Below, piece by piece: positions 27,997 through 52,806 of a stretch of DNA of 64,000 nt. Both the position numbers and the translations under genes were made by a program. Numbering within the stretch: position 1 is the stretch's first letter; each line of letters starts with the position of its first letter. The notes beneath the pieces are model-generated. The model made no database searches and was not told where the DNA came from. It saw only the letters and a list, made by a program, of their open reading frames with translations. Source of the stretch: Actinomyces oris (GTDB taxonomy: Bacteria; Actinomycetota; Actinomycetes; Actinomycetales; Actinomycetaceae); NCBI RefSeq assembly GCF_006546825.1, contig NZ_VICC01000002.1:1-64000 (forward strand), in the 5' to 3' direction.

Positions 27997-28095
27997 GGGC
28001 GAGCACTAAGGGCGAACCGAGCCGCATCGAGACTCAGACCTTCCCCGGGGCCGCTCACACTTTCTTCCAGTATTTCGAACCCATCGTAAAAAAGG

Positions 28096-28115
28096 CGTTC
28101 GCGTAGGCGCGAACG
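28096..28115 (-). terminator. Hairpin with U-tract on the minus strand
   Basis: CGTTCGCG and CGCGAACG pair perfectly around TAGG. On the minus strand the stem is followed by CCTTTTTTAC, the form of an intrinsic terminator for leftward transcription. No minus-strand gene lies just upstream of it, so it may shield tetR from antisense reading. On the plus strand it is a hairpin without U-tract after tetR. Confidence 0.55.
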
Positions 28116-28133
28116 TGCTACTCTCTCCCCCGG

Positions 28134-28151
28134 TTGTACAAGACGTACAAT
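28134..28151 (+). promoter_or_regulatory. TetR-type operator overlapping a promoter
   Basis: TTGTACAAGACGTACAA (28134-28150) has perfect 6-bp arms with a 5-nt centre, and TACAAT (28146-28151) inside it is a good -10 hexamer for the glycosyltransferase gene. Position and form fit repression by the TetR protein encoded upstream. Confidence 0.55.
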
Positions 28152-28213
28152 AGAACAACGATGAGGGCTCACCCGCACTGTGGCACCCCTCGCTCTCAGA
28201 AGGAGAGCCGATC

Positions 28214-29494
28214 ATGCCTCAAGGCACCACTGGAGATGTGGTAGCTGTACGCCGCAGGACGTCGCGCGTCCTCTTCGCTCCGGAGACATTCAACTTCGCC
28301 GAGGTGACCCGTGCGATCGAGGTGGCCCGCCGGATGCCTTCGCACGTCGAGTGCGTCTTCGCCGGCTTCTCGCCACGTAACACTGAGTACATCAGGGCCG
28401 CGGGCTTCGAGTTCCGCCTGCTGACCCCCTACCTCAGTGAGGAGGAGGGAAGGCTGGCGCTGGACTTCGACCAGGGCCGCAGTCTGCGTCACCCGTTCAC
28501 GGAGAAGATGCTCGCCCAGCGGGTGACGAGTGAGCGCGTCCTGCTGCGTTCCTTGCGTCCGGACGCCGTTGTCATCGGAGTAACTCCCAGCCAGTTTATT
28601 TCTGCGCGGGCGGAGTGCGTGCCGCTGGTTTTCGTACGGCCCTTCGCCTACTCCCTGGCGCACCTGGAAGCAGCGCGCGCCGCCGGGGCCACCGGATTCC
28701 TGCCCCGTACCTCCCCGGAGGAGTGCCTGGTCGACAACGTGGCCGCTCACGCGCTCCATGCGCTCGGGACGCGGCTCCCCCTGCCTCGTTCCTTCCATTC
28801 TGTGGCCAGGGCCAATGGCGTCTCGCTGCCCCAGGGGGTGCTCAACGGGCTCACTGCCGATCTCAATCTCATCGCTACTGCCCCGCACCTGCTGCCCGAG
28901 TGGCTGAGGATGCCTCAGGGGCACCGGGTGGTGGGGCCGGTCTACGCCCAGCTGCCCGGGGAGCTCCCCGAGTTCCTGGCCGACCTGGCCGCCGGCCCCC
29001 AGCCCCTGGTGTACTTCGCCATGGGCTCATCGGGGAACCGTGACCTCGTCCTTCACGTGCTGGCAGGCCTGGGCCGGGCGGACTGCCAGGTACTGGCTCC
29101 GGTACGTTCACACCTTCGCCAGGAGGACCTGGAGACTCTTCCACACAATATCCACGTCACTGACTGGCTTCCGGCCCACCAGCTGGGCGACGCTGTCGAC
29201 CTGGCCATCACTCACGGCGGGGAGGGAACGGTACAGACCAGCTGTGTCCAGGGGTGGCCCTTCATCGGGATTCCGTTGCAGTTCGAGCAGCGTTTCAACG
29301 TGCAGCGTTGTGCGGCCTTCGGCTCGGCCAGGCTCGTGTCGCAACGGGAGACTCGCAGGACCGACTGGGCGGAGCTGGTGCGCCAGGCCCTGGCCGACGA
29401 CGGCATGCGTTCACGCGCCAGGCGGATGGCCGGGCTCATGGAGGGACTCGACGGACCGGGCCGGGCCGCTGAGGCGATCTGCGAGCTGCTGTGA
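28214..29494 (+). CDS. Family 1 (MGT-type) glycosyltransferase
   Basis: 426 aa, GT-B fold. The C-terminal nucleotide-sugar site has the macrolide-type pattern DLAITHGGEGTVQTS followed by GWPFIGIPLQFEQRFN. The N-terminal acceptor half is variable (FAPETFNFAEVTRAIEVARRM). Relatives glycosylate antibiotics, sterols or other small molecules; the acceptor here is unknown. The ATG has a strong SD (AAGGAGAG, 8-9 nt). It follows a TetR gene and a palindromic operator. It ends 1 nt from the convergent rRNA methyltransferase gene, so the two stops nearly touch. Confidence 0.85.
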   Translation: MPQGTTGDVVAVRRRTSRVLFAPETFNFAEVTRAIEVARRMPSHVECVFAGFSPRNTEYIRAAGFEFRLLTPYLSEEEGRLALDFDQGRSLRHPFTEKMLAQRVTSERVLLRSLRPDAVVIGVTPSQFISARAECVPLVFVRPFAYSLAHLEAARAAGATGFLPRTSPEECLVDNVAAHALHALGTRLPLPRSFHSVARANGVSLPQGVLNGLTADLNLIATAPHLLPEWLRMPQGHRVVGPVYAQLPGELPEFLADLAAGPQPLVYFAMGSSGNRDLVLHVLAGLGRADCQVLAPVRSHLRQEDLETLPHNIHVTDWLPAHQLGDAVDLAITHGGEGTVQTSCVQGWPFIGIPLQFEQRFNVQRCAAFGSARLVSQRETRRTDWAELVRQALADDGMRSRARRMAGLMEGLDGPGRAAEAICELL

Positions 29495-29495
29495 G

Positions 29496-30428
29496 TCAGC
29501 TGCGGCCAGAGTTCTGGGCCTGTGCCCGGGCGCTGGCGTAGAGGCAGACGGCTGCGGCCGCGGCGACGTTGAGGGACTCCGCCTTGCCGTAGATGGGGAT
29601 GGAGACGACGGCGTCGGCTCGGCTCAGCGCCTCTGATGGCAGTCCGTGGGCCTCGTTGCCGAGCAGCCAGGCGCTGGGGGCCTCCAGGAGGGACTCGGCC
29701 TCGAAGAGGTCGAAGTCCCCGCGTCCGTCGGCGGCGAGGACGGTGAGTCCGGCGTTGTGGAGAGCGGTGACGGCGTCGTCGAGGGCAACGCCGGTGACCA
29801 CGGGCAGGTGGAAGAGGCTTCCGGCGGTGGAGCGCACGACCTTCGGTGCGGTGGGGTCCACGCTGCCGCGCACGAGGACGACGGCGTCGGCGCCGGCGGC
29901 GTCGGCGGCCCGGATGATGGTGCCTGCGTTCCCGGGGTCCTGGGCCTGGGTGAGGACGGCGACGAGCCTGGCCCCCTCCAGGGCGGCGGCCAGCGCCTCG
30001 GAGCCGGTGGCCTCCTCGGTGGCCACGACGGCGAGGAGGCCCTGGGCGTCGGGGCTCATGGCGTCCATGACCTGCTGGGTGGTGACGTGCACGTAGAGCC
30101 CGGCGGCCACGGCCTCGTCCCAGATATCGCTGTGGCGCTCGAGGGCCGCCTCGGTGAGGTAGACGTCGAGCACGCGGCCGGGGGCGTGCCGGACGGCCTC
30201 GCGCACGCCCTGGGGTCCTTCGACGAGGAAGCGCCGATGCTTGGTCCGCGAGTTGCGGCGGGACAGGCCCGCCACCCGGGAGGTTCGGGCCGAGGTCGGA
30301 TTGCTCAGCACCTCGTGGCCGGCGGCCGGGCCCTCACTGACGGTGCGCCGCCGCGGCCCGCGGGCATGCGGACGCTCGGCGGAGTCATCTAGAAGTTCGT
30401 CAGGGTCCTCAGATACCGCAAATTTCAT
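29496..30428 (-). CDS. TrmH/SpoU-family RNA 2'-O-methyltransferase (RlmB-like)
   Basis: 310 aa. An N-terminal basic part and substrate-binding domain (LSRRNSRTKHRRFLVEGPQGVREAV, core HRRFLVEGPQGV) is followed by the SPOUT knot with motifs DPGNAGTIIRAADAAGADAV (core PGNAGTIIRAADA), WLLGNEAHGLP and IPIYGKAESLNVAAAAAVCLY (core ESLNVAAAAAV). It methylates a ribose in rRNA or tRNA. In Actinobacteria such a gene commonly sits between rplT and pheS; here it is separated from both by insertions. ATG at 30428 opens an acidic leader of about 40 residues; internal starts are possible. Confidence 0.9.
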   Translation of the reverse strand: MKFAVSEDPDELLDDSAERPHARGPRRRTVSEGPAAGHEVLSNPTSARTSRVAGLSRRNSRTKHRRFLVEGPQGVREAVRHAPGRVLDVYLTEAALERHSDIWDEAVAAGLYVHVTTQQVMDAMSPDAQGLLAVVATEEATGSEALAAALEGARLVAVLTQAQDPGNAGTIIRAADAAGADAVVLVRGSVDPTAPKVVRSTAGSLFHLPVVTGVALDDAVTALHNAGLTVLAADGRGDFDLFEAESLLEAPSAWLLGNEAHGLPSEALSRADAVVSIPIYGKAESLNVAAAAAVCLYASARAQAQNSGRS

Positions 30429-30755
30429 AGCGACATCCTACGGGAGAGCAAGACGAAGGGCAGAACATCAACAGTATGTCGCCCCAGACCCAACAACCTT
30501 TCATCACCTCACATCGCATCAGGTGGTGACTCTACACACACCCATCACCTACCATGGCACTAGACCTCAGCTGTGATCGGCTTCCAAGTTCTTCAACTGC
30601 GCCACACCCCACTCACACCACTCCATACCAGAATGATTGACAGAGGCTCCAAACCACCACTCGACAACACGCGCTAACGCTGTCAATCAACACCTAGAAT
30701 ACACAGCAAACTTCAAGCCAAACGCAACATTTCGAGAATAGCAACAGGAAACACA
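30429..30755. promoter_or_regulatory. AT-rich spacer with promoter region of the CHAT protease operon
   Basis: 327 bp without a credible gene. The arms TGATTGACAG (30634-30643) and CTGTCAATCA (30680-30689) are a perfect 10-bp inverted repeat 36 nt apart. TAGAAT (30695-30700) is a good -10 hexamer just after the second arm, about 55 nt before the ATG. A weaker pair TCATCACCT/AGGTGGTGA (30501-30509, 30521-30529) lies nearer rlmB. The base composition changes sharply from GC-rich to AT-rich around 30440-30470. Confidence 0.5.
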
Positions 30756-33146
30756 ATGTCATCGCTTGTCCCAGAAACATATTTAAATATAACGCAATAC
30801 GGAGACACCAGGTGGCCTTGGAAGCTGCGCAGAACTCACCGCAAGGCAATAAAAGTTGCTGCCATACCAATCGACAACCTAAACGAGAGCAACATAAATA
30901 AAGCGAGAGAGATATCCGCCAAACTCACTACCTTCCTTAATGACGTCCGCTCAGAAAGCTGGGGAGACCTGGCTGAAATATATCAGCTTCAGCAATACCT
31001 CGACCTGCTTGGAGAGTTCCCAAAGCGAGACAGATTTGAAACACTATGCAGTGTCCTGCCCATCATGTGCGGACGATTTTTCAACGACGATCACTATAAA
31101 AAAATCCACAAAGACTCTATTCTTTCAAACTGCTTTCAAATTGTGGGGATGGAGTACCTTAAAGCCGGAGAATTCGATAACGCATTCGATGCCTTCGGAT
31201 ACGCTTGGGCCACAGCCAAACAAAGATTACTGGTACAGCGACTCACTCAACTCTCCGCCGCGTGCGCATACCTTTCCAAAAACCCAGAGCTTATCGAACT
31301 TGTAGACGACATGATCGAAGACGTCATACAGTACTCTGCGCACCTACAATCCTTATATCGATGCTTCCACGACCGCCTTGCCGAAAAAACATCTCCACAA
31401 GATCTTCTCGGTGATATATGCCTGCTCGGTCAAAACGATCCCCTACTTGCATTGCTAGCCGCTGAAAGAGTCATTGAAACCCTCCTAAAGCAACACCACA
31501 CAGAAACTGCGGAACAGGTAGTTTCAGCACTACGAAAGCTATTTGCATCATGCGAACCCTGGGTTGAATCACTCATACTCCAGTTTGAAGCACAGATTTC
31601 TTTCGCAAAGAACGACTTTGCGTCGGCTCGCGACAACGCAAACTATGCACTCAAGCTAAGTGAATACCTGCTTTTACAGCCCTGCCTGCCGACATCCAGG
31701 AAATCGGTGTTTGAACGATACGATAAGTCTAGGACAATAGCACTTAAGAGCTATTTGGAACTGAATGACGCGAGAGGAATGGCGCAGTTTATAGAAGACC
31801 ACCGTTTGAAAGTGACCGTCGATGCCAGCATTGAAGAGGTTGAGGAAGAGCCGCTAGCCGCCCCCAGAGAACCTAATTCGGATGCCGGAAACACCACTCA
31901 GAACGACGATCTTTTCGCTCCAAGCTTGATTCTGGATGTATGGCATGAAATTACTACCTGCTACTCCATGACTTCGATAAATCAAAGCGCTCATGACACC
32001 GATGAGTTGCTCGGTTTGCCATTATCATTGTCCTACGCCAGGGTAAAGTCATCTATATTCTGGGCAGCAGCATCGAACGGAATTCCTCTGGGTTGTGGCG
32101 AACTCAGCCTAACTCAAAATCGCGATCTTAGTGAAATAATCAATACCTTCGAACAATACTTCACTAAGTTACACTCCGACACAGATCAGTTTCCCGAAAT
32201 CGATTTATTCCACTACCTGAGGGAATGGGGAACTCCGGAAGAGACCTGGATTACCGAAACACTAGGGACTCTTATTCCAGATTGCGTCAAGAATGTAATC
32301 TTTGGTTCTGAGACTAGAACTACGCTAACTATATCGACAGATTTCCAGATCCCCCCTTTGCCGTGGCCTATTTTTCGCATAGCTCACACAGGCGTCAGTT
32401 CGTCTTTAATTGAATCAACCGACATTCATCACTGGCTTTCAGCGAGACTTAGCTCGGCAAGCCGTAAGCACTTGCATTCTGAGTCCATACCTTTGCTTTT
32501 GGTTATAGACAATCCGGATGGTCGGTTGACGACTCAGCCTCCCCCGGAGTTTAGCGTTTCTCAGGAAATTTTTAGTGGTCCCATCTTACAGCATGGCAAT
32601 AGTGTCTGGGAGTATGCAGTAAATAGTTTCGTCAACCATCCCGCTGGAGTGCTGTACTATCGAGGTCATTTAGAATCAAGAAGAAGCCCTGCTGACGCAT
32701 ATTTTAAGTTCCCCACACCAATAGGAACTTCCGAGAGTGACGAGTCTTCTTTCCTTGCTGTTGGTCAGTTATTCGGAAAATTCGAGGATGGCAAACCGTG
32801 GTTTCCGCTTCCGACAAGGGTCATTCTGTCGTGTTGTTCAAGCTCAGGAACGGGTCAACTTGCTGGCGAAGCAATCGGTCTAGCTGCGGCTTGCATTGAG
32901 GGAGGTGGGGCCTCTGAAGTGATTGCAACGTCAATTGACATTCTTGACGATCCATTCACATCTCGCTTCGATGGAATGCTTACGCAGGTCAGTGTAGATA
33001 GCCCCCCTCTATACAAAGGCCTCTCAATGCTACAGAATAGAGTATACTTGGACTGGAGAAACTATTCCCTCAGAGGTGGTGAACCAGAGTCGACTAGAAC
33101 AGCTTGGCCCCACCCACTCATTTGGGCGATGTATCAGGCATACTAA
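30756..33146 (+). CDS. TPR-like + CHAT (caspase-like) domain protein
   Basis: 796-aa protein, unlike its neighbours in composition (frequent ATA, TTA and AGA codons). Residues about 120-350 are helical with TPR-like spacing (EYLKAGEFDNAFDAFGYA; FEAQISFAKNDFASARDNANYAL). An acidic linker (about 358-390) leads to a C-terminal half that ends in a CHAT-type peptidase core. The candidate catalytic His638 is in VLYYRGHLE, and Cys694 is in VILSCCSSS, followed by GEAIGLAAACIEGGGASEVIATSIDILDD (core GEAIGLAAACIEGGGA), the typical CHAT order. CHAT peptidases act as effectors in bacterial conflict systems, cleaving proteins such as gasdermins or partner factors. The target here is unknown. SD AGGAAA precedes the ATG by 4-5 nt. 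A small gene follows after 19 bp. Function in defence is inference. Confidence 0.75.
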   Translation: MSSLVPETYLNITQYGDTRWPWKLRRTHRKAIKVAAIPIDNLNESNINKAREISAKLTTFLNDVRSESWGDLAEIYQLQQYLDLLGEFPKRDRFETLCSVLPIMCGRFFNDDHYKKIHKDSILSNCFQIVGMEYLKAGEFDNAFDAFGYAWATAKQRLLVQRLTQLSAACAYLSKNPELIELVDDMIEDVIQYSAHLQSLYRCFHDRLAEKTSPQDLLGDICLLGQNDPLLALLAAERVIETLLKQHHTETAEQVVSALRKLFASCEPWVESLILQFEAQISFAKNDFASARDNANYALKLSEYLLLQPCLPTSRKSVFERYDKSRTIALKSYLELNDARGMAQFIEDHRLKVTVDASIEEVEEEPLAAPREPNSDAGNTTQNDDLFAPSLILDVWHEITTCYSMTSINQSAHDTDELLGLPLSLSYARVKSSIFWAAASNGIPLGCGELSLTQNRDLSEIINTFEQYFTKLHSDTDQFPEIDLFHYLREWGTPEETWITETLGTLIPDCVKNVIFGSETRTTLTISTDFQIPPLPWPIFRIAHTGVSSSLIESTDIHHWLSARLSSASRKHLHSESIPLLLVIDNPDGRLTTQPPPEFSVSQEIFSGPILQHGNSVWEYAVNSFVNHPAGVLYYRGHLESRRSPADAYFKFPTPIGTSESDESSFLAVGQLFGKFEDGKPWFPLPTRVILSCCSSSGTGQLAGEAIGLAAACIEGGGASEVIATSIDILDDPFTSRFDGMLTQVSVDSPPLYKGLSMLQNRVYLDWRNYSLRGGEPESTRTAWPHPLIWAMYQAY

Positions 33147-33165
33147 AGCAGGAAGGATTCTCGTC

Positions 33166-33492
33166 GTGATTAATATTTCCATTCCCGAATCTCTCGCCGA
33201 TTCCCTTATTGAACAGGGATACGCTAGACGTTCTGGAATGCAACGGGGAACATTTTCGGAGTGGCTTATTGTCGGCGCAAATGAGGCTTCGGTGTGGGTT
33301 ACGCTACTCCAAACTCCTGCAGTACTTGAATACTATGCCGGACTATTGATTGGCCGCTCGAAGAAAGAAGGGGGCAGAATTGAAGTATCAGTGGATTCTC
33401 CTTCGATGTCCAAACATTTGACCTTTGAAGTAAATTCAGACGTGAAAATTGACAAACTAGTAGACGCTCTTGAAAAGCTTCTCGCGGATTAA
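33166..33492 (+). CDS. Small partner protein of the CHAT protease, unknown function
   Basis: 108 aa. The GTG start at 33166 is chosen since GGAAGG lies 9 nt upstream and the protein then begins (M)INISIPESLADSLIEQGYARRSG; the frame to 33076 lies inside the CHAT gene. A helical N-terminal half (FSEWLIVGANEASVWVTLL; AVLEYYAGLLIGRSKK) is followed by a strand-rich part (GRIEVSVDSP, KHLTFEV) and a final helix (KIDKLVDALEKLLAD). It has no signal peptide and shares the AT-rich composition of the upstream gene, 19 bp away. In position and size it resembles the small adaptor components that accompany caspase-like effectors. I cannot assign it to a family. Confidence 0.7.
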   Translation: MINISIPESLADSLIEQGYARRSGMQRGTFSEWLIVGANEASVWVTLLQTPAVLEYYAGLLIGRSKKEGGRIEVSVDSPSMSKHLTFEVNSDVKIDKLVDALEKLLAD

Positions 33493-33769
33493 AATACCGC
33501 CTCGAAAGCAAGTTTTTTCATTTCATTATGTGCAGTCTTGGGCAATTTTAGAACTGCGGGTTTTATTCACGTCTGTGCGGATTCTGCTCCTGGATTCAAC
33601 CCTTCATTCATGATACGTGCGTGCTGTAGAGATCTGCGCGGTTTCGGTTGATACAGACTCTGTATCGAGACTTACTCTGCAAACTCTAACGTTGTGTCCG
33701 TCCCACGGTCACTTGAACACACGTGCGCCTGAAGCCACCCAACACAACATACGTGACATTTAGAGGACG
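33493..33769. other. AT-rich spacer after the CHAT operon
   Basis: No gene visible. The only structure seen is the inverted repeat GATACAG-ACT-CTGTATC (33650-33666), a possible terminator stem or protein site without U-tract. Composition returns to GC-rich near the rplT terminator, which marks the right side of the island. Confidence 0.4.
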
Positions 33770-33815
33770 TCAACAGCGGTGGCGCCACCCGATCAGGTAG
33801 CGCCACCGCTGTTGA
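33770..33815 (-). terminator. Terminator of the infC-rpmI-rplT operon
   Basis: Perfect 16-bp stem (33770-33785 with 33800-33815), 14-nt loop, 39 bp beyond the rplT stop. No U-tract follows. Its presence here shows that the ribosomal operon no longer reads into rlmB. Confidence 0.75.
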
Positions 33816-33854
33816 AAGGTATCGATCAGTAGACCATCTGTCTACTGGCCAATA

Positions 33855-34235
33855 TCAGGCCTTGGGGGCGTTGACGTCCTCGGGAAGGGCCTTGCGGGCC
33901 ACCTCCACAAGGGCCTTGAAGCCCGCGGGCTCGTTGACGGCCAGCTCTGCGAGCATACGGCGGTCGATCTCCACGCCGGCCAGGCCAAGACCCTGGATGA
34001 AGCGGTTGTAGGTCAGGCCCTCGGCGCGGGCGGCAGCGTTGATGCGCTGGATCCACAGGCGACGGAAGTCGCCCTTGCGGGCGCGACGGTCGCGGAACGC
34101 GTAGACGCCGGAGTGGGTGACCTGCTCCTTGGCCTTGCGGTAGAGGCGCGAGCGCTGGCCGCGGTAGCCCGAGGCCTTCTCGAGAACGGAACGACGCTTC
34201 TTCTGGGCGTTAACAGCCCGCTTCACACGTGCCAT
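33855..34235 (-). CDS. rplT: 50S ribosomal protein L20
   Basis: 126 aa, basic, 23S rRNA-binding assembly protein. The conserved sequence [23 protein letters not shown] (core [12 protein letters not shown]) and [16 protein letters not shown] is present. Last gene of infC-rpmI-rplT, 27 bp after rpmI, with SD AAGGAG before the ATG. In other bacteria L20 represses its own operon; no L20 site was identified here. Confidence 0.97.
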
Positions 34236-34262
34236 GGTGAGACTCCTTGGTGGGTTGGGCGG

Positions 34263-34457
34263 TCAGCGACCGAGCAGCTTCTTGACCTGGCGGACGTCGG
34301 CCGGGGCGACCGGCTGGTCCTGGGACAGCTTGCGCTTGCGGCGGGAGGACTTGACCTCCAGCAGGTGGCGCTTGTTGGCCTGCTCGCGCATGAGCTTGCC
34401 GCTGCCGGTGACCCGGAAGCGCTTCTTGGCACCGGAGTGCGTCTTGTTCTTCGGCAT
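34263..34457 (-). CDS. rpmI: 50S ribosomal protein L35
   Basis: 64 aa, very basic, with the family start [21 protein letters not shown] and the block [15 protein letters not shown]. It lies between infC and rplT in the standard order; SD AGAGGAAAT just upstream. Confidence 0.97.
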
Positions 34458-34580
34458 GGGTAATTTCCTCTTCTCGGTCCCTGGGAGACCAGTGGTCGCC
34501 GGGACTGCGGACCCCGCTCACGGTGGCGAGGGGGTGGGTCAGTGGTGTCAGGTGAGTGTCGAGTGCACCCTCAGGCGCTC

Positions 34581-35222
34581 TCAGGCGTTCTCGCCGGCAG
34601 GCGCCCCGTCCGAGGCCTTGGCGCCCTTGGGCGCCCGGCCCGCATGCTTCTCGGCACGGCGGGCGGCGCGGGCCTCCTCGCGGCGGCGGCGCTGGTCGGA
34701 CTTGACCTCAGCCTTCTTGCGGACCGGGGCCAGGACCATGACCATGTTGCGGCCGTCCTGACGGGGGTGGGACTCGATAGTGCCCAGCTCGGCCATCTCC
34801 TCGGCCAGGCCCTGCAGGAGCCTGATACCGAGCTCGGGCCGAGACTGCTCACGGCCGCGGAAGCGGACGATGCACTTGACCTTGTCCCCGCCCTTGAGGA
34901 ATCGCTCGACGTGGCCGCGCTTGGTGGCGTAGTCGTGCTCATCGATCTTGGGGCGGAACTGGATCTCCTTGAGCTGGGTGTTTGCCTGGTTGCGTCGCGC
35001 GTCGCGCGCCTTCATGGCCGACTCGTACTTGAACTTGCCGTAGTCCATGAGCTTGCACACCGGAGGGCGGGCGTCGGGTGCCACCTCGACCAGGTCGAGA
35101 TCGGCCTCCTCAGCCAGACGCAGGGCGTCCTCCACGCGGACAACGCCGACCTGCTCGCCGCTGGGGCCGACGAGACGCACTTCGGGAACGCGGATCCGTT
35201 CGTTGATACGGGGCTCGCTGAT
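34581..35222 (-). CDS. infC: Translation initiation factor IF-3 (AUC start codon)
   Basis: 213 aa. The N-domain includes [17 protein letters not shown] and [23 protein letters not shown] (core [14 protein letters not shown]); the C-domain has [21 protein letters not shown] (core [12 protein letters not shown]) and [13 protein letters not shown] basic tail of about 30 residues follows. The first ATG/GTG in frame (GTG, 35180) would remove the conserved [10 protein letters not shown] block. Upstream of it the frame has only ATC at 35220-35222, with GAGG 7 nt before it and an in-frame TGA just beyond. IF-3 genes of many bacteria use AUU or AUC so that IF-3 can repress its own translation. AUC is therefore the assigned start. 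Confidence 0.9.
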
Positions 35223-35452
35223 GTCGGTTCCTCACTCTGAGTCGCGGATGGTTGCGGAACGAGGAAAGGCCCCCGTTCCTGCCGCGCAGGTCGGAGGCCT
35301 CGTGATGAGCGCGATCACCGCACGGCCGTGGCCGAGCAGAGACCGCGAAGGGCTGGTCACCCTCGCATGAACCCGATTCCCGAAAGGAACCCAGGTGGGA
35401 TCGCTCCGCTTGCGCACCGGGGCGAACCCCGGGTGGTCAGTGAGGGATACTA
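35223..35452 (-). promoter_or_regulatory. infC leader: promoter and attenuator-like hairpin
   Basis: A -10 box TAGTAT lies at 35447-35452 on the minus strand (no good -35). It would give a leader of about 220 nt. Two structures are visible. One is CCGGGG-TTCG-CCCCGG near 35416-35434. The other is a composite hairpin at 35267-35300 (9-bp outer stem with one G-U, inner CCTGC/GCAGG) followed by UUU on the minus strand, 45 nt before the infC start. The latter looks like a terminator or attenuator. The remainder to 35544 holds nothing recognised. Confidence 0.45.
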
Positions 35453-35544
35453 CCAGGACACGGGCTCGCTCTCCCACCGTGTCCTCGCCCCTCTTGACGT
35501 GAGTCCTCCCACGTGTGAGGCCTGCGTCGAGGCGAGGCAGGTCG

Positions 35545-37155
35545 TCAGGAGGCCCGGCGGTTCGTGCGGACTCCCCACATGACGACGACGGCACCGGCTG
35601 CGGCCTGGATCCCGAGGAGCATCGTCGTCGGCACCGCCATACCGCTGGCGACCAGCGCCACGGTCAGTGCTCCGACGACGACGGCGTCGGGCCCTTGAGT
35701 CAGCATTTGCAGCACTCCCGGCGGCAGGGACCCCATGGGAGAGGCGACGAGCCCGGCGGCGAAGTCGGGCATCTCCCGGTACCCGGAGCGCAGCGCCGCC
35801 CCGGCCCAGGCCCAGCCGCTCACCAGGGCCAGGGCAACCACGATGGCCAGCCCATTCCAGGCGGCCGCAGCCCCAAGGGCCGCCATGGCGGGAGCCAGGC
35901 TCAGCAGGGACCAGGCGCTCATGAGGACGGCCGGCACGAGCAGGTGGCCTGCTCGCACCACCCACGGCGCCACCGGCCAGGAGGCATCAGGACCGCCGTC
36001 GAACCAGGCCTGGCGCGCCGGCTCGGCAACGGCCAGGGTCGCGATCCAGCCTCCGATGAGGTACCCGACGGCGCGCAGCGGGGCGCCGACCGCCCCGGAC
36101 AGGAGCGGCAGCATCGCAATGGCCAGCCCGACCCCCATCTGCAGCAGGCGCCGGCGCTGGCGGCACAGCAGGATCCAGTCCGCCTGAGCCACTGCTATCA
36201 GCACCCCCAGCGGTCGGGGCAGTCGACTCCCGATCCGCGCCGCCCGCAGCGGTGAAGGATCGGCGGGCCGGGTGGGATCCGGGGAGAGCAGCCGCCCCAG
36301 GGCCCTGGTGTCCAACGACAGCAGCGAGACGTGCGCGCCGAAGGACCGCGCGACGACGGCCAGGAGCGCAGCATCATGCACCTGTCCCAGGCTGCCTCTG
36401 GCCCGCCGCCATCCCAGCACAGCCAGGAAGGCCAGCACGCCGGCCAGCAGGGCGACCGCCGTGTTGCCGAGCAAGGAGCGTGGGAAGGCAAGCACCACAC
36501 CGGCCAGGCATGCTGCAGCCCCCGCCACGATGAGACGGCGCCGCAGCGGCTCGACATAGCGGTCAAGAATCTGGGCCTTGATGAGTTCGGTGAGGACCAG
36601 GCAGGTCCCGGCCGAAAGCAGGGCAGGCCACGCGATGGCGGCGAGCCAGCCGCCTCCGGCCGCCACCGCCGGGAGCACGCCCGCCGTGGCTCCTACGGTG
36701 GCCGCGATGAGGTACTCAACGCGGGCCACCGGCACCAGGAGACTGCCCCGGTCTCCAGGCATGGGCAGCCACCAGGCCGCCTCGTGGGGGCGCAGGAACA
36801 GTGGGCCGAGCCGGCCGAGTGAACCGACACCGACCGCCACCAGCAGCATGAGCAGCGCCAGGAGCCCCCACCCGGGGTCGAGGCCCACCGCGGCGAAGCC
36901 GCCGAGCGCACCGGCCCCAACCGCTGAACCAGGCGGGGTCACAACCATCCGACGCAGATACGGGGCCAGGATCGTCACGACGACGATGAGTGTCAGGAGT
37001 ACGGAGTAGACGTCCCCCACGAGCGCCCAGACACCGTGGAGGTGCCGCCGAGTACGGCGCCGCACCCACCTGCGCAACGCGGCCCCATCGGGAAAGGTCA
37101 TCGTTTCCAGCTCGGTGGAGAGGACCGGCGCCATCCGGTCACCCAGCGGCGTCAT
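35545..37155 (-). CDS. Polytopic membrane protein (DUF6297-like), putative ABC permease
   Basis: 536 aa with roughly ten to twelve hydrophobic segments, for example VYSVLLTLIVVVTILAPYL, LLALLMLLVAVGVGSL, TAVALLAGVLAFLAVL and the final VVGALTVALVASGMAVPTTMLL. A WWLPMPGDR block near residue 127 and basic cytosolic loops are notable. The ATG overlaps the ABC ATPase stop by 4 nt, which makes it the likely membrane partner of that ATPase. Substrate unknown. The DUF6297 assignment rests on size, topology and pairing only. Confidence 0.7.
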   Translation of the reverse strand: MTPLGDRMAPVLSTELETMTFPDGAALRRWVRRRTRRHLHGVWALVGDVYSVLLTLIVVVTILAPYLRRMVVTPPGSAVGAGALGGFAAVGLDPGWGLLALLMLLVAVGVGSLGRLGPLFLRPHEAAWWLPMPGDRGSLLVPVARVEYLIAATVGATAGVLPAVAAGGGWLAAIAWPALLSAGTCLVLTELIKAQILDRYVEPLRRRLIVAGAAACLAGVVLAFPRSLLGNTAVALLAGVLAFLAVLGWRRARGSLGQVHDAALLAVVARSFGAHVSLLSLDTRALGRLLSPDPTRPADPSPLRAARIGSRLPRPLGVLIAVAQADWILLCRQRRRLLQMGVGLAIAMLPLLSGAVGAPLRAVGYLIGGWIATLAVAEPARQAWFDGGPDASWPVAPWVVRAGHLLVPAVLMSAWSLLSLAPAMAALGAAAAWNGLAIVVALALVSGWAWAGAALRSGYREMPDFAAGLVASPMGSLPPGVLQMLTQGPDAVVVGALTVALVASGMAVPTTMLLGIQAAAGAVVVMWGVRTNRRAS

Positions 37156-48953: not shown

Positions 48954-51263
48954 ATGTCTCAGACGACCATGACATCGGGATCCCCAGGGACGGGCGGCCC
49001 TGTTCGCGAGCGCGCCGAGGCCGTCCTGCGCGAGCTCGTGGGCCGCAGCGACGCGCGCCTGCGTGAGGACCAGTGGCGGGCGATCGAGGCGCTGGTCATC
49101 GCACGCCGCCGAGCCCTGGTGGTCCAGCGCACCGGGTGGGGGAAATCAGCGGTGTACTTCGTGGCGACGGTGCTGCTGCGAGAGGGCTGGGGAGGCTGGA
49201 GCCCGGGCACCCCACCGCCATCCCCCGGTGCGCGCTCCGGCACCGGGGCAAGCGTCATCATCTCGCCGCTGCTGGCCCTCATGCGCGACCAAGTGGCCGC
49301 CGCCGAGCGCGCCGGAATCCGGGCCGTGACCATGAACTCGGCCAATGTCACGCAGTGGGATGAGATTCAGGCCCAGGTGGCCGGTGGTGAGGTCGATGTC
49401 CTGCTGGTCTCCCCGGAGCGCCTCAACAACCCGGTCTTCCGTGATGAGGTCCTCCCCCACCTGGCTGCGGGCGCCGCACTGGTGGTCATCGACGAGGCCC
49501 ACTGCATCTCGGACTGGGGCCACGACTTCCGCCCTGACTACCGGCGCATCGCCACCCTGCTGGCCGGTCTGCCGCCGCGCACCCCGGTCCTGGCCACGAC
49601 GGCGACCGCGAACCGACGGGTCAGTGCCGACATCGCTGAGCAGCTGGGGGCGTCTGTGGAGGCAGGCGGGGCGGACGGCGAGCAGGTCCTGGTGCTGCGG
49701 GGGACCCTGGAGCGCGGCTCCCTCCACCTGGGAGTCAGGATGCTGCCGGATGCCGCCTCACGCCTGGCCTGGCTGACCGCCTATGTCCGCTACGCTCACG
49801 GCAGCGGCATCATCTACTGCCTGACGGTCTCGGCGGCGCAGGAGGTCGCCGAGCACCTGCGTGCGGCGGGCGTGGAGGTGGCCGCCTACACGGGGCAGAC
49901 CGAGGCCGCCGAGCGCGAGCGCCTGGAGGAGGATCTCAAGGCCAACCGGGTCAGGGCACTGGTGGCCACCTCCGCTCTGGGCATGGGCTTCGACAAGCCG
50001 GACCTGGCCTTCGTGGTGCACCTGGGGGCTCCTTCCTCGCCGGTGAGCTACTACCAGCAGGTGGGGCGGGCCGGCCGCGGAGTGGAGCGGGCCGAGGTGG
50101 TCCTGCTGCCCGGCCAGGAGGACCGGGCCATCTGGGAGTGGTTCGGCTCGCAGGGTTTCCCGCCCGAGGAGCAGGTTCGCGTGGTCCTCGATGCTCTGGA
50201 GGAGCGCAGGGCCGCGGGCGGCGGGGCGATGTCGACGGCGGTGCTGGAGACGGCGACCTCGTTGCGGCGCAGCCGGCTGGAGTCCATGCTCAAGGTCCTC
50301 GATGTCGACGGCGCCGTGCGCCGGGTTCGTGGCGGCTGGGAGTCCACCGGCCGGCCCTGGCGCTATGACGCGCAGCGTTATGCGCGAGTCGAGGCCGCGC
50401 GCCGGGCCGAGCAGGAGGCGATGGTCGCCTATGAGCGCCTCGGGACCGATACTGGCCCTGGGCGGACAACCGTGTCGTGCCGGATGGCCTTTCTGAGGTC
50501 GGTGCTCGATGATCCCTTGCTTGAGCCGGGATGGCGCTGCGGAGCCTGCGACCTGTGCGGGGGCCTGGACCTGCCTGACGCCCCTGACCAGGAGCAGGTC
50601 GGTGCCGCCCGAGCGGCGCTCGGACGGGTGGGGGTCGAGCTGCAGGCACGTCGCCAGTGGCCCTCCGGGATGGATCGGCTGGGCCTGGGCCGTTTCAAGG
50701 GTCGTATCGGGGCCGACCGTCAGGCGGCGACCGGGCTGGCGGTGGGCAGGCTGGATGGGTTGGGGACCTCGGTGGTGCTGCGCGAGCTGGTGGCCTGCGC
50801 CTCCGACGGCGAGGTCCCGGTGGCGCTCAGGCCACAGGTGCTTCAGGCGGTGGACCGGCTCGCTGAGATCATCCGCGACGAGCAGGAGGCCGCCGGCTCC
50901 GACGGGCCGCCGGGCGGAGAGCCGGCCGTCGTCGTCGTGGACTCCCGCACCCGCCCCCGCATGGTCCGCCGGCTGGGGCACGCCGTGGTCGCACGGCTGG
51001 GCGCACGGGCCTTGGGCGTCGTGGGCCTGTCCGGTCAGGAACCACCGCAGCACGATGTGGGCTCTGCGTTTCGCCTGGCGCAGGTGGCCCGCAGCCTGAC
51101 GCTCCAGGGCTGGTCGGCCCAGGCCCTTGACGAGCTGCGCGAGCGCACCGTGGTCCTCGTGGACGACTGGAGCGACTCCGGCTGGACGCTCACGACGGCC
51201 GCCTTCCTCCTGCGCGAGGCGGGGGCGGCGGCGGTCCACCCCTTCGTGCTGGCGCAGAGGTAG
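48954..51263 (+). CDS. RecQ-family DNA helicase with C-terminal phosphoribosyltransferase-like domain
   Basis: 769 aa. Helicase motifs: RLREDQWRAI (motif 0), Walker A RTGWGKSAVYF, IISPLLALMRDQV, VVIDEAHCISDWGHDFRPDY (core DEAHCISDWGHDFR), ATTATAN, SALGMGFDKPDL, YYQQVGRAGRG. The RecQ zinc site follows as SCRMAFL...CGACDLCGG. There is no HRDC domain. Instead the last about 170 residues look like a type I phosphoribosyltransferase, with a PRPP-loop-like VVLVDDWSDSGWTLTTAA near the C-terminus. Domain fusion suggests coupling of DNA unwinding to nucleotide sensing or salvage; that is inference. Confidence 0.88.
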   Translation: MSQTTMTSGSPGTGGPVRERAEAVLRELVGRSDARLREDQWRAIEALVIARRRALVVQRTGWGKSAVYFVATVLLREGWGGWSPGTPPPSPGARSGTGASVIISPLLALMRDQVAAAERAGIRAVTMNSANVTQWDEIQAQVAGGEVDVLLVSPERLNNPVFRDEVLPHLAAGAALVVIDEAHCISDWGHDFRPDYRRIATLLAGLPPRTPVLATTATANRRVSADIAEQLGASVEAGGADGEQVLVLRGTLERGSLHLGVRMLPDAASRLAWLTAYVRYAHGSGIIYCLTVSAAQEVAEHLRAAGVEVAAYTGQTEAAERERLEEDLKANRVRALVATSALGMGFDKPDLAFVVHLGAPSSPVSYYQQVGRAGRGVERAEVVLLPGQEDRAIWEWFGSQGFPPEEQVRVVLDALEERRAAGGGAMSTAVLETATSLRRSRLESMLKVLDVDGAVRRVRGGWESTGRPWRYDAQRYARVEAARRAEQEAMVAYERLGTDTGPGRTTVSCRMAFLRSVLDDPLLEPGWRCGACDLCGGLDLPDAPDQEQVGAARAALGRVGVELQARRQWPSGMDRLGLGRFKGRIGADRQAATGLAVGRLDGLGTSVVLRELVACASDGEVPVALRPQVLQAVDRLAEIIRDEQEAAGSDGPPGGEPAVVVVDSRTRPRMVRRLGHAVVARLGARALGVVGLSGQEPPQHDVGSAFRLAQVARSLTLQGWSAQALDELRERTVVLVDDWSDSGWTLTTAAFLLREAGAAAVHPFVLAQR

Positions 51264-51312: not shown

Positions 51313-52806
51313 CTAGAAACCCGTGGAGACGGCGGCCAGTGCGGGAGCCACCTGGCCTCCGGGGGTTCCGACCTGATCCTCGAGGTAGTACCACCAGAAG
51401 GGGGCTCCCCAGGCGTCGGAGCGCCCCAGTGCCGCGCCGGTGACGTGCTCGGCGACGGCGGTGCGGGCCGCCACGGGGTCGGAGGCCGAGCCGAACCACC
51501 AGGGACCGGCGTTGAGGTCCGCTCCCCCGTACCCGAGCTCGGTCACGGCGATCCGGGAGGAGGAGAAGGCGGCCTCCAGGGTGCTGAGAACCCGGTCGGC
51601 GGCTGTTCCCAGCGGATGGAGCTGGGGGTAGACGGACAGTCCCACGACGTCGATCAGCTCCCTGATCGATGCGGGGAGCTCCCTGGCTGCATAGCTGAAC
51701 AGGGAGTAGGTCGGGTCCGCCTGCCCGAGCTGGTAGTACAGGGTGAGCACCGTCGTGGCGCTGGTGCGCTCGCGCACGGCCTTGGCCGCTCGCTGGGCCT
51801 TGGCCACCGGCCCGGTGCCCAGCCAGTCCCCACCGATCTCGTTGCCGATCTCCCAGGCGTCGACGTTGGGAAGCGCCTTGATAAGGGTGTCGACCCGCGT
51901 GTCCCAGGCGGAGTCGGTCAGGGCGGCCAGGTCGTGGGAGTCGCAGATCTGGACCAGGGCCTGCCCGCCCTGCGCGTGCAGGGCCTCCACCGTGTTGCGC
52001 CAACCGGTCATTTCCTCGGCGTCATTGGGGTCTCCGATGACGAGGCGGGCTGAGACCTTCCGCTTGCCGCCTCCCGGTCCGCTGGGGGCCAGTGCTGCGG
52101 CGATCTCGACGGAGGTGGGCACCCGGGTGAAGGTCACCCCGATCACGGCGTCCTGCGGCGCCTGAGCGGACAGCGCCCGGTCCAGGGAGAGCTGGGCCCC
52201 GGCAGCCGACTCCAGGGCGGAGTTCGCCAGGCGGCCCCGCTCCGTCCATGACTGGGCCTTGGCACAGGCATCCAGGGACTGCTGGGCGGAGGCCCGCAGC
52301 TTTTCCGCCTCGTCAGCGCCCTTGAAGCCCTTCGCAGTGGCCTGCGCGAGGCGCTCGGCCTGCCGACCGTGGAGGGTTCGGGCCGCCAGCTCCAGGAGAT
52401 CGTGCTCCCCGGAGGCCGGTAGATCCGCCATGAGTGCCGAGTACCCGTGGCTGGTCGGCCACGACAGGGTCAGCGTGCACTCACGCCCGGCAGGCACATC
52501 GATGCCAATGGCACCACCCTCATCCTGGTAGAGGGGGCCGACGGCGATGACCTCCAGGGTCTTGGCATCCAGCAGCGCGTCGTCATAGCCGACCTCGCCC
52601 TTGCCGTTGGACTGAATGCGTCGCAGCGCCTCGAGGTTGAGGGCACTGCCCTGCGCATCACTGACGTGAAGGCTCACATGGGTGGTCGCCCCGTCCCCCA
52701 TGGCCGTCGGAGTCACGTTCGCGTGCCCACAGGAGGACACTGACGCTCCCAGAATCCCGGTGCCCAGGAGCGCCAGCACCCTTCTGCGGTTGGTCTCGAT
52801 TGTCAT
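51313..52806 (-). CDS. Lipoprotein with glycoside-hydrolase-like TIM barrel
   Basis: 497 aa. Signal peptide with RRRVLALLGTGILGASVSSC; the lipobox Cys at about residue 26 predicts an outward membrane anchor. The N-terminal about 200 residues are not recognised. The C-terminal about 260 residues have clan-A glycosidase features: NVDAWEIGNEIGGDW with the acid/base-type Glu, IDVVGLSVYPQLHP, and IAVTELGYGG with the nucleophile-type Glu. It probably trims the exopolysaccharide made by the operon upstream. An extended -10 (TGGGATACT) ends 6 nt before the ATG, so it may also be transcribed separately. Confidence 0.75.
   Translation of the reverse strand: MTIETNRRRVLALLGTGILGASVSSCGHANVTPTAMGDGATTHVSLHVSDAQGSALNLEALRRIQSNGKGEVGYDDALLDAKTLEVIAVGPLYQDEGGAIGIDVPAGRECTLTLSWPTSHGYSALMADLPASGEHDLLELAARTLHGRQAERLAQATAKGFKGADEAEKLRASAQQSLDACAKAQSWTERGRLANSALESAAGAQLSLDRALSAQAPQDAVIGVTFTRVPTSVEIAAALAPSGPGGGKRKVSARLVIGDPNDAEEMTGWRNTVEALHAQGGQALVQICDSHDLAALTDSAWDTRVDTLIKALPNVDAWEIGNEIGGDWLGTGPVAKAQRAAKAVRERTSATTVLTLYYQLGQADPTYSLFSYAARELPASIRELIDVVGLSVYPQLHPLGTAADRVLSTLEAAFSSSRIAVTELGYGGADLNAGPWWFGSASDPVAARTAVAEHVTGAALGRSDAWGAPFWWYYLEDQVGTPGGQVAPALAAVSTGF

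Follow-up and report, generated by a model that had tools for sequence, protein, structure and literature searches.

Why does a RecQ-type helicase end in a phosphoribosyltransferase (PRT) domain, and what could that domain do where the DprA-type partner known from related systems is missing? A gene from Actinomyces oris raises this question. It lies in a 64,000-nucleotide stretch of DNA, here called the window, and encodes a protein with the following parts.

48954..51263, plus strand: rqlH-like gene, 769 aa, ATG start, encoding a RecQ-type helicase, a linker, a four-Cys site and a PRTase-like C-terminal domain (ORF; PADLOC PsyrT model)
49065..49622, plus strand: first RecA-like helicase lobe (DEAD, residues 38-223), Walker A TGWGKS at 60-65 and DEAH at 180-183 (Pfam, alignment)
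49791..50078, plus strand: second RecA-like helicase lobe (Helicase_C, residues 280-375; QVGRAGRG at 369-376) (Pfam, RecQ-core structural matches)
50154..50477, plus strand: linker from motor to zinc site (residues 401-508) (37-sequence alignment and model)
50478..50558, plus strand: tetracysteine site C509, C529, C532 and C535, a putative zinc site (invariance across alignments)
50565..50921, plus strand: connector (residues 538-656) that co-folds with the PRT domain (model of residues 545-769; conserved residues)
50922..51260, plus strand: type I PRTase-like domain, ComFC-like (residues 657-769) (Pfam PF00156, hhalign to a ComF alignment, fold matches)
51150..51203, plus strand: PRPP-loop signature VVLVDDWSDSGWTLTTAA (residues 733-750; D737, D738, D741, W744, T745) (motif and conservation)

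The motor is readily recognized. Pfam places DEAD at residues 38-223 (8e-23) and Helicase_C at 280-375 (5e-19), and TIGR00614 scores 229.8 bits, above its cut-off of 219.8, indicating the core of a RecQ-family ATPase/helicase. The full protein, modelled with a 37-sequence alignment (pLDDT 85.5, pTM 0.85), matches RecQ-type cores over residues 9-540, with Z of 32.1 over 410 residues for 7aud and 30.8 over 390 residues for D. radiodurans RecQ (4q48); RecQ structures range from about 26 to 32. The alignment also reveals an extension at the N-terminus and a long insertion within the first lobe. Residues 401-508 are what we take to be the "RqlH-specific linker". The first-pass annotation, made from the sequence alone, described an intact helicase core and zinc site without HRDC. 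The core and the missing HRDC domain (no Pfam HRDC model at E<=1) stand, and so does a putative zinc site: RecQ_Zn_bind is below threshold (13.3 bits, cut-off 25), and all four Cys are invariant in 37/37 aligned orthologues. The protein shares helicase core and zinc site with the canonical RecQ of E. coli but reaches only 244.6 bits on TIGR01389 (cut-off 640.2), and on this score together with the missing HRDC we reject a canonical RecQ.

In place of HRDC the protein carries a PRT fold. Pribosyltran (PF00156) matches residues 718-767 at 3.3e-6 (26.9 bits, just above the cut-off of 26.3). The full-length fold search was uninformative on this part because the RecQ core took up the match list. 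Modelled alone, however, the C-terminal 225 residues (545-769) fold with a pLDDT of 93.6 and a pTM of 0.90, and PRT-fold proteins fill the top 50 Foldseek matches listed (best E 5.9e-5). A structure prediction without such a fold had been named as the result that would overturn the proposed fusion. Fusion of a RecQ-type helicase to a PRTase-fold domain is instead borne out by Pfam, the PsyrT model, the predicted fold and the PRPP-loop motif, although the domain begins near residue 657 and not at 600 as first delimited. The connector before it has conserved W569, P570, G572, G594, R599 and G604 in the alignment of 37 orthologues.

The nearest structural relatives are not salvage enzymes. VIA-align ranks ComF/ComFC of H. 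pylori (7p0h; Z 12.1, rmsd 4.5, 172 residues) as the top solved match of residues 545-769 and ShosT with PRPP-Mg (8zvc; Z 9.7, rmsd 4.1, 169 residues) second, followed by ShosT with phosphate and then salvage PRTases near Z 9. Aligning the domain by hhalign to 12 ComF-like proteins of relatives gives 97.5% probability over 110 columns; the best solved matches by sequence profile are PRPP synthetases, through the PRPP loop. The description as a nucleotide-metabolism domain is thus not supported, since by profile and fold the closest proteins, ComFC and ShosT, serve DNA uptake and toxin-antitoxin systems. Both ComFC and the window protein have a Cys4 site before the PRT domain, but they are only 10% identical and ComFC is a separate natural-transformation protein, not fused to a helicase. 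On TIGR00201 (comF) the window protein, whose PRT part is fused to a helicase and not stand-alone, scores 20 bits against a cut-off of 233.55 that true-looking ComF proteins of relatives also miss. ShosT, which presumably carries no helicase, shares the PRT fold at an identity of 12% or less. The ShosTA antitoxin is likewise a DprA homologue (PMC9122126); a literature search on the mechanism of ShosT gave no such study among the papers listed.

The predicted layout comprises a strand at 658-662 followed by SRTRP, a strand at 685-692 followed by a short loop, a strand at 732-740 with the PRPP loop and a last strand at 760-768, which in the model is compatible with a minimal PRT core. We assign loops to ligands only by analogy with ComFC, whose PRT part binds PRPP and nucleotides and which as a protein binds ssDNA, according to PMC9005727.

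Sequence comparison places the gene in a published family. PADLOC model PDLC03928 (PsyrT) matches residues 18-768 at E 1.4e-186, and the same model matches plasmid-borne proteins of E. coli and Nostoc at E 0. The window protein is 40% identical over the whole alignment to the plasmid-borne E. coli RqlH, whose domain order and VDD..DSGWT motif it shares, and 41% to the Nostoc RqlH, and in both records the gene after the helicase is annotated DprA and matches PsyrA. Judged by these matches, the window gene is a member of the RqlH family, together with M. smegmatis RqlH, E. coli RqlH and PsyrT of PsyrTA. The helicase-PRTase fusion is therefore real but already known, because this family has been published. 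According to PMC4670107, M. smegmatis RqlH is a RecQ-family helicase that does not need its PRTase domain to hydrolyse ATP or unwind DNA, the genotoxicity of E. coli RqlH depends on this domain and is prevented by RqlI, and RqlI is missing from nearly all RqlH-bearing Gram-positive bacteria. Two further papers list the toxin of PsyrTA as RecQ (PMC8790059) and couple a helicase-PRTase fusion to DprA (PMC5512222).

The family is widespread. The first-pass annotation considered the architecture uncommon outside Actinobacteria; this is not supported as a remark on the window gene, which itself comes from an actinobacterial genome. Relatives turned up in Escherichia, Acinetobacter, Sinorhizobium, Nostoc and a haloarchaeon, and PMC4670107 puts the number of genera with an RqlH or RqlI orthologue at 240. 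Nor is Ser-Gly in place of Thr-Gly in the PRPP loop a departure as had been suggested: both are widespread in the family, and E. coli RqlH also has SGWT. A plasmid of Halanaeroarchaeum sulfurireducens encodes an RqlH-like protein (L224, 2426-4507) with no annotated DprA partner adjoining it.

A strong match to the window protein (E 8.5e-136 or better) exists in 80 of 99 relatives, the own genome counted among them. The 19 without comprise 5/48 other genus members, 8/12 family members and 6/38 order members. A near-full-length match (694 bits or more) is present in 72/396 genomes drawn from the phylum, in one case with an internal TAG, and the nearest match among named genomes is that of an Actinomyces MAG (68%). 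The genus order hisB-hisC-antiporter-marR-rqlH-d1-d2-wecB is intact or almost intact in the closest relatives and has gaps in distant ones; three loci (L107, L108, L110) lack most of it, and hisC-hisB is still nearby in 4/20 order- and family-level loci (L032, L033, L034, L036). We conclude that this is an ordinary, vertically inherited chromosomal gene and not part of an island.

Other parts of the window show features of their own. An adjoining minus-strand gene (51313-52806) encodes a 497-aa protein that is conserved in the genus and has no Pfam match at E<=0.001. A stretch at 28001-36000 has a G+C content of about 0.59-0.61, against 0.64-0.71 around it, and may have been horizontally acquired. 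Its genes code for an EryCIII/UDPGT-like glycosyltransferase (28214-29494), a SpoU methylase (29496-30428) and, at 30756-33146, a protein of 796 aa whose CHAT protease domain narrowly passes the Pfam cut-off (2.5e-5). An SOS-box-like palindrome (up to 2 mismatches) occurs twice in the window, where 1.6 matches would be expected, both times away from the gene.

Partner-linked and solo helicases separate in the tree. We call a locus solo if neither of two PsyrA queries finds a tblastn match (E<=1e-3, >40 bits) between -100 and +900 nt of the helicase stop, a search that a very divergent partner would escape. No PsyrA-like gene turned up in the window or beside any of 40 genome loci and 80 named loci, and two positive controls were detected. 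From a list of 180 loci, L253 was left out as the same place as L261. Of the 179 loci read, 26 are linked and 145 solo, and in 8 the sequence beyond the stop was too short for a call; solo rows are over-sampled because the 80 named loci are those that best match an alignment headed by the window protein, and their readable names are all Actinomycetota. L118 duplicates L032 and was removed, and the truncated L138 (451 aa) was excluded from the tree. Genus loci L002-L030 stand outside this set, 20 of their genomes being represented by L092-L111.

A quick, midpoint-rooted tree of 169 rows, in which the program flagged long branches and uneven composition so that gain or loss of the partner cannot be told from it, divides with support of 100 into a side of 129 rows, all solo and including the window gene, and a side of 40 rows that unites all 26 linked loci with 14 solo ones. 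Among the linked rows are 21 Actinomycetota loci belonging to the class of genome G142; the phylum thus has linked pairs as well. The all-solo side also holds many Streptomyces rows and six from Mycobacteriaceae. M. smegmatis RqlH, reportedly described by Ordonez, Unciuleac and Shuman in 2012 (NAR gks046), resembles the window protein in its RecQ-like motor, tetracysteine site, C-terminal ComF-like PRT domain, lack of HRDC and solo gene. With 691 aa it is shorter than the window protein (769 aa).

The PRPP site is conserved on both sides of the tree. D737, W744 and T745 are invariant in 37/37 aligned orthologues and D738 nearly so, which argues that the motif first noticed at residues 733-750 is no chance resemblance. 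W744 is kept in all rows (129/129 all-solo, 40/40 mixed), both Asp (737 and 738) in 120/129 and 40/40, and the four Cys in 129/129 and 37/40. Nine of the 129 all-solo rows have lost one of the two Asp. Residue 743 is Gly in 106 of the 129 and Arg in 23, and Arg dominates on the mixed side (28/40). By a simple Nei-Gojobori-type count against ten close orthologues, dN/dS is 0.20-0.47 for the PRT domain, 0.18-0.25 for the helicase and 0.24-0.49 for the connector; purifying selection thus acts on the PRT domain, though less strongly than on the motor.

We propose, with a probability of roughly 0.7, that the window protein is a solo RqlH: a 3'-5' repair translocase/helicase carrying a ComFC-like module for sensing or docking that binds PRPP or nucleotides. 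The predicted motor, two RecA lobes of the RecQ superfamily with a tetracysteine site, would move 3'-5' along ssDNA at the expense of ATP, and a ComFC-like PRT-fold domain would take the place of HRDC. The protein likely serves housekeeping DNA repair, as the only RecQ-family match above model cut-off in the genome (all others are below 64 bits). Its C-terminal domain would most likely bind PRPP or a nucleotide together with ssDNA and is most likely a sensing or docking module of the motor, not a salvage enzyme. Domain content, predicted fold, family membership, vertical inheritance, the absence of RqlI/PsyrA and PRPP-site conservation are seen directly in our data, whereas helicase activity (M. 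smegmatis), PRT-dependent toxicity (E. coli) and PRPP binding (ComFC) would carry over by analogy from papers on relatives. Against this proposal we count that the gene is dispensable, lacking a strong match in 19/99 relatives (5/48 in the genus), and that dN/dS of the PRT domain tends to exceed that of the helicase. The loss of an Asp in 9/129 rows and of an acid at 741 in 23/129 would fit a tolerant binding module and also decay in part of the clade.

The alternative that survives best, although we consider it unlikely, is that the domain has phosphoribosyltransferase activity and modifies either DNA itself or a base or nucleotide carried by it, as in the model of Russell and Mulvey for E. 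coli RqlH. The window protein has D737, D738 and D741, the last of which probably corresponds in the alignment to E. coli D663; an Ala substitution at D663 removed most of the toxicity (PMC4670107). Residue 741 is Asp or Glu in 106/129 all-solo and 33/40 mixed-branch rows, yet the remaining 23 and 7 have no acid there. The chain moreover stops right after the strand that follows the PRPP loop, the nearest relatives are PRT proteins outside salvage, and no product is known.

The protein could also be the toxin half of an anti-phage system like PsyrTA or RqlHI, either without its DprA-type partner or with one encoded elsewhere, which we regard as improbable. It matches the PsyrT model over its full length, and in E. 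coli and Acinetobacter the linked pair adjoins restriction or BREX genes. In E. coli, however, the helicase stop overlaps the dprA-type partner gene, whereas the window gene has no such neighbour, nor have its relatives in the flanks searched, and falls into the separate all-solo clade. A PsyrA query finds matches in 58 of 59 relatives, via DprA homology; in the own genome the best one reaches 63.4 bits and is a canonical DprA by Pfam (DNA_processg_A and DprA_WH), about 120 kb from the helicase. True linked pairs in G142, of the same phylum, score 281-296 bits on PsyrA and start close behind the helicase stop. The window gene is therefore not classed as PsyrTA or RqlHI, because it lacks an adjacent DprA-type partner and the best candidate in the genome falls so far below the linked pairs. 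As the sole good DprA is the canonical one, we reject an unlinked RqlI, and on synteny and the absent partner also a mobile defence-island gene at this locus.

DprA-like genes occur in other arrangements too. One actinobacterial contig (C10 of G142) carries two RqlH-PsyrA pairs about 21 kb apart (L261 and L262), with PsyrA a few bases behind each helicase. Three genomes of the same genus (G027, G015 and G014) encode a second DprA-like protein of the ShosA type (L112:1468-2760, L113:1450-2403 and L114:1228-2217; 202-212 bits, PADLOC ShosA). In L113 and L114 this gene overlaps by 4 bases an ORF of 246 or 395 aa without a PADLOC match, the 246-aa ORF also lacking a Pfam match, and in each case this may be a DprA-linked pair whose other member is undescribed.

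An inert structural remnant that only stabilizes the protein would agree with site residues lost in some Actinomycetes and with a PRT domain dispensable for M. smegmatis helicase activity (PMC4670107), but is doubtful given W744 in every solo row, both Asp in 120 of the 129 and a dN/dS well below 1.

We therefore return to a solo RqlH with a sensing or docking module. Its published architecture makes the window gene a data point and not a discovery. What we add is its placement: an all-solo clade, synteny in the genus, PRPP-site residues under purifying selection, and all 26 DprA-linked loci on the other side of the tree. The split between the all-solo clade and the partner-linked loci is a modest addition. 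The gene touches a puzzle raised by PMC4670107, namely why RqlH is retained without RqlI in many bacteria when on its own it is toxic in E. coli. We tentatively speculate that there are two RqlH lineages: one holding the partner-linked loci and a large all-solo one in Actinomycetota, to which this gene belongs. In the latter the PRT domain may be, from the outset or by later change, a non-toxic gauge of PRPP or nucleotides linking a repair helicase to the state of the nucleotide pool. Being solo and syntenic, with its PRPP site conserved and no second clear RecQ in the genome, the gene would offer a clean setting for the role of the PRT domain without a partner.
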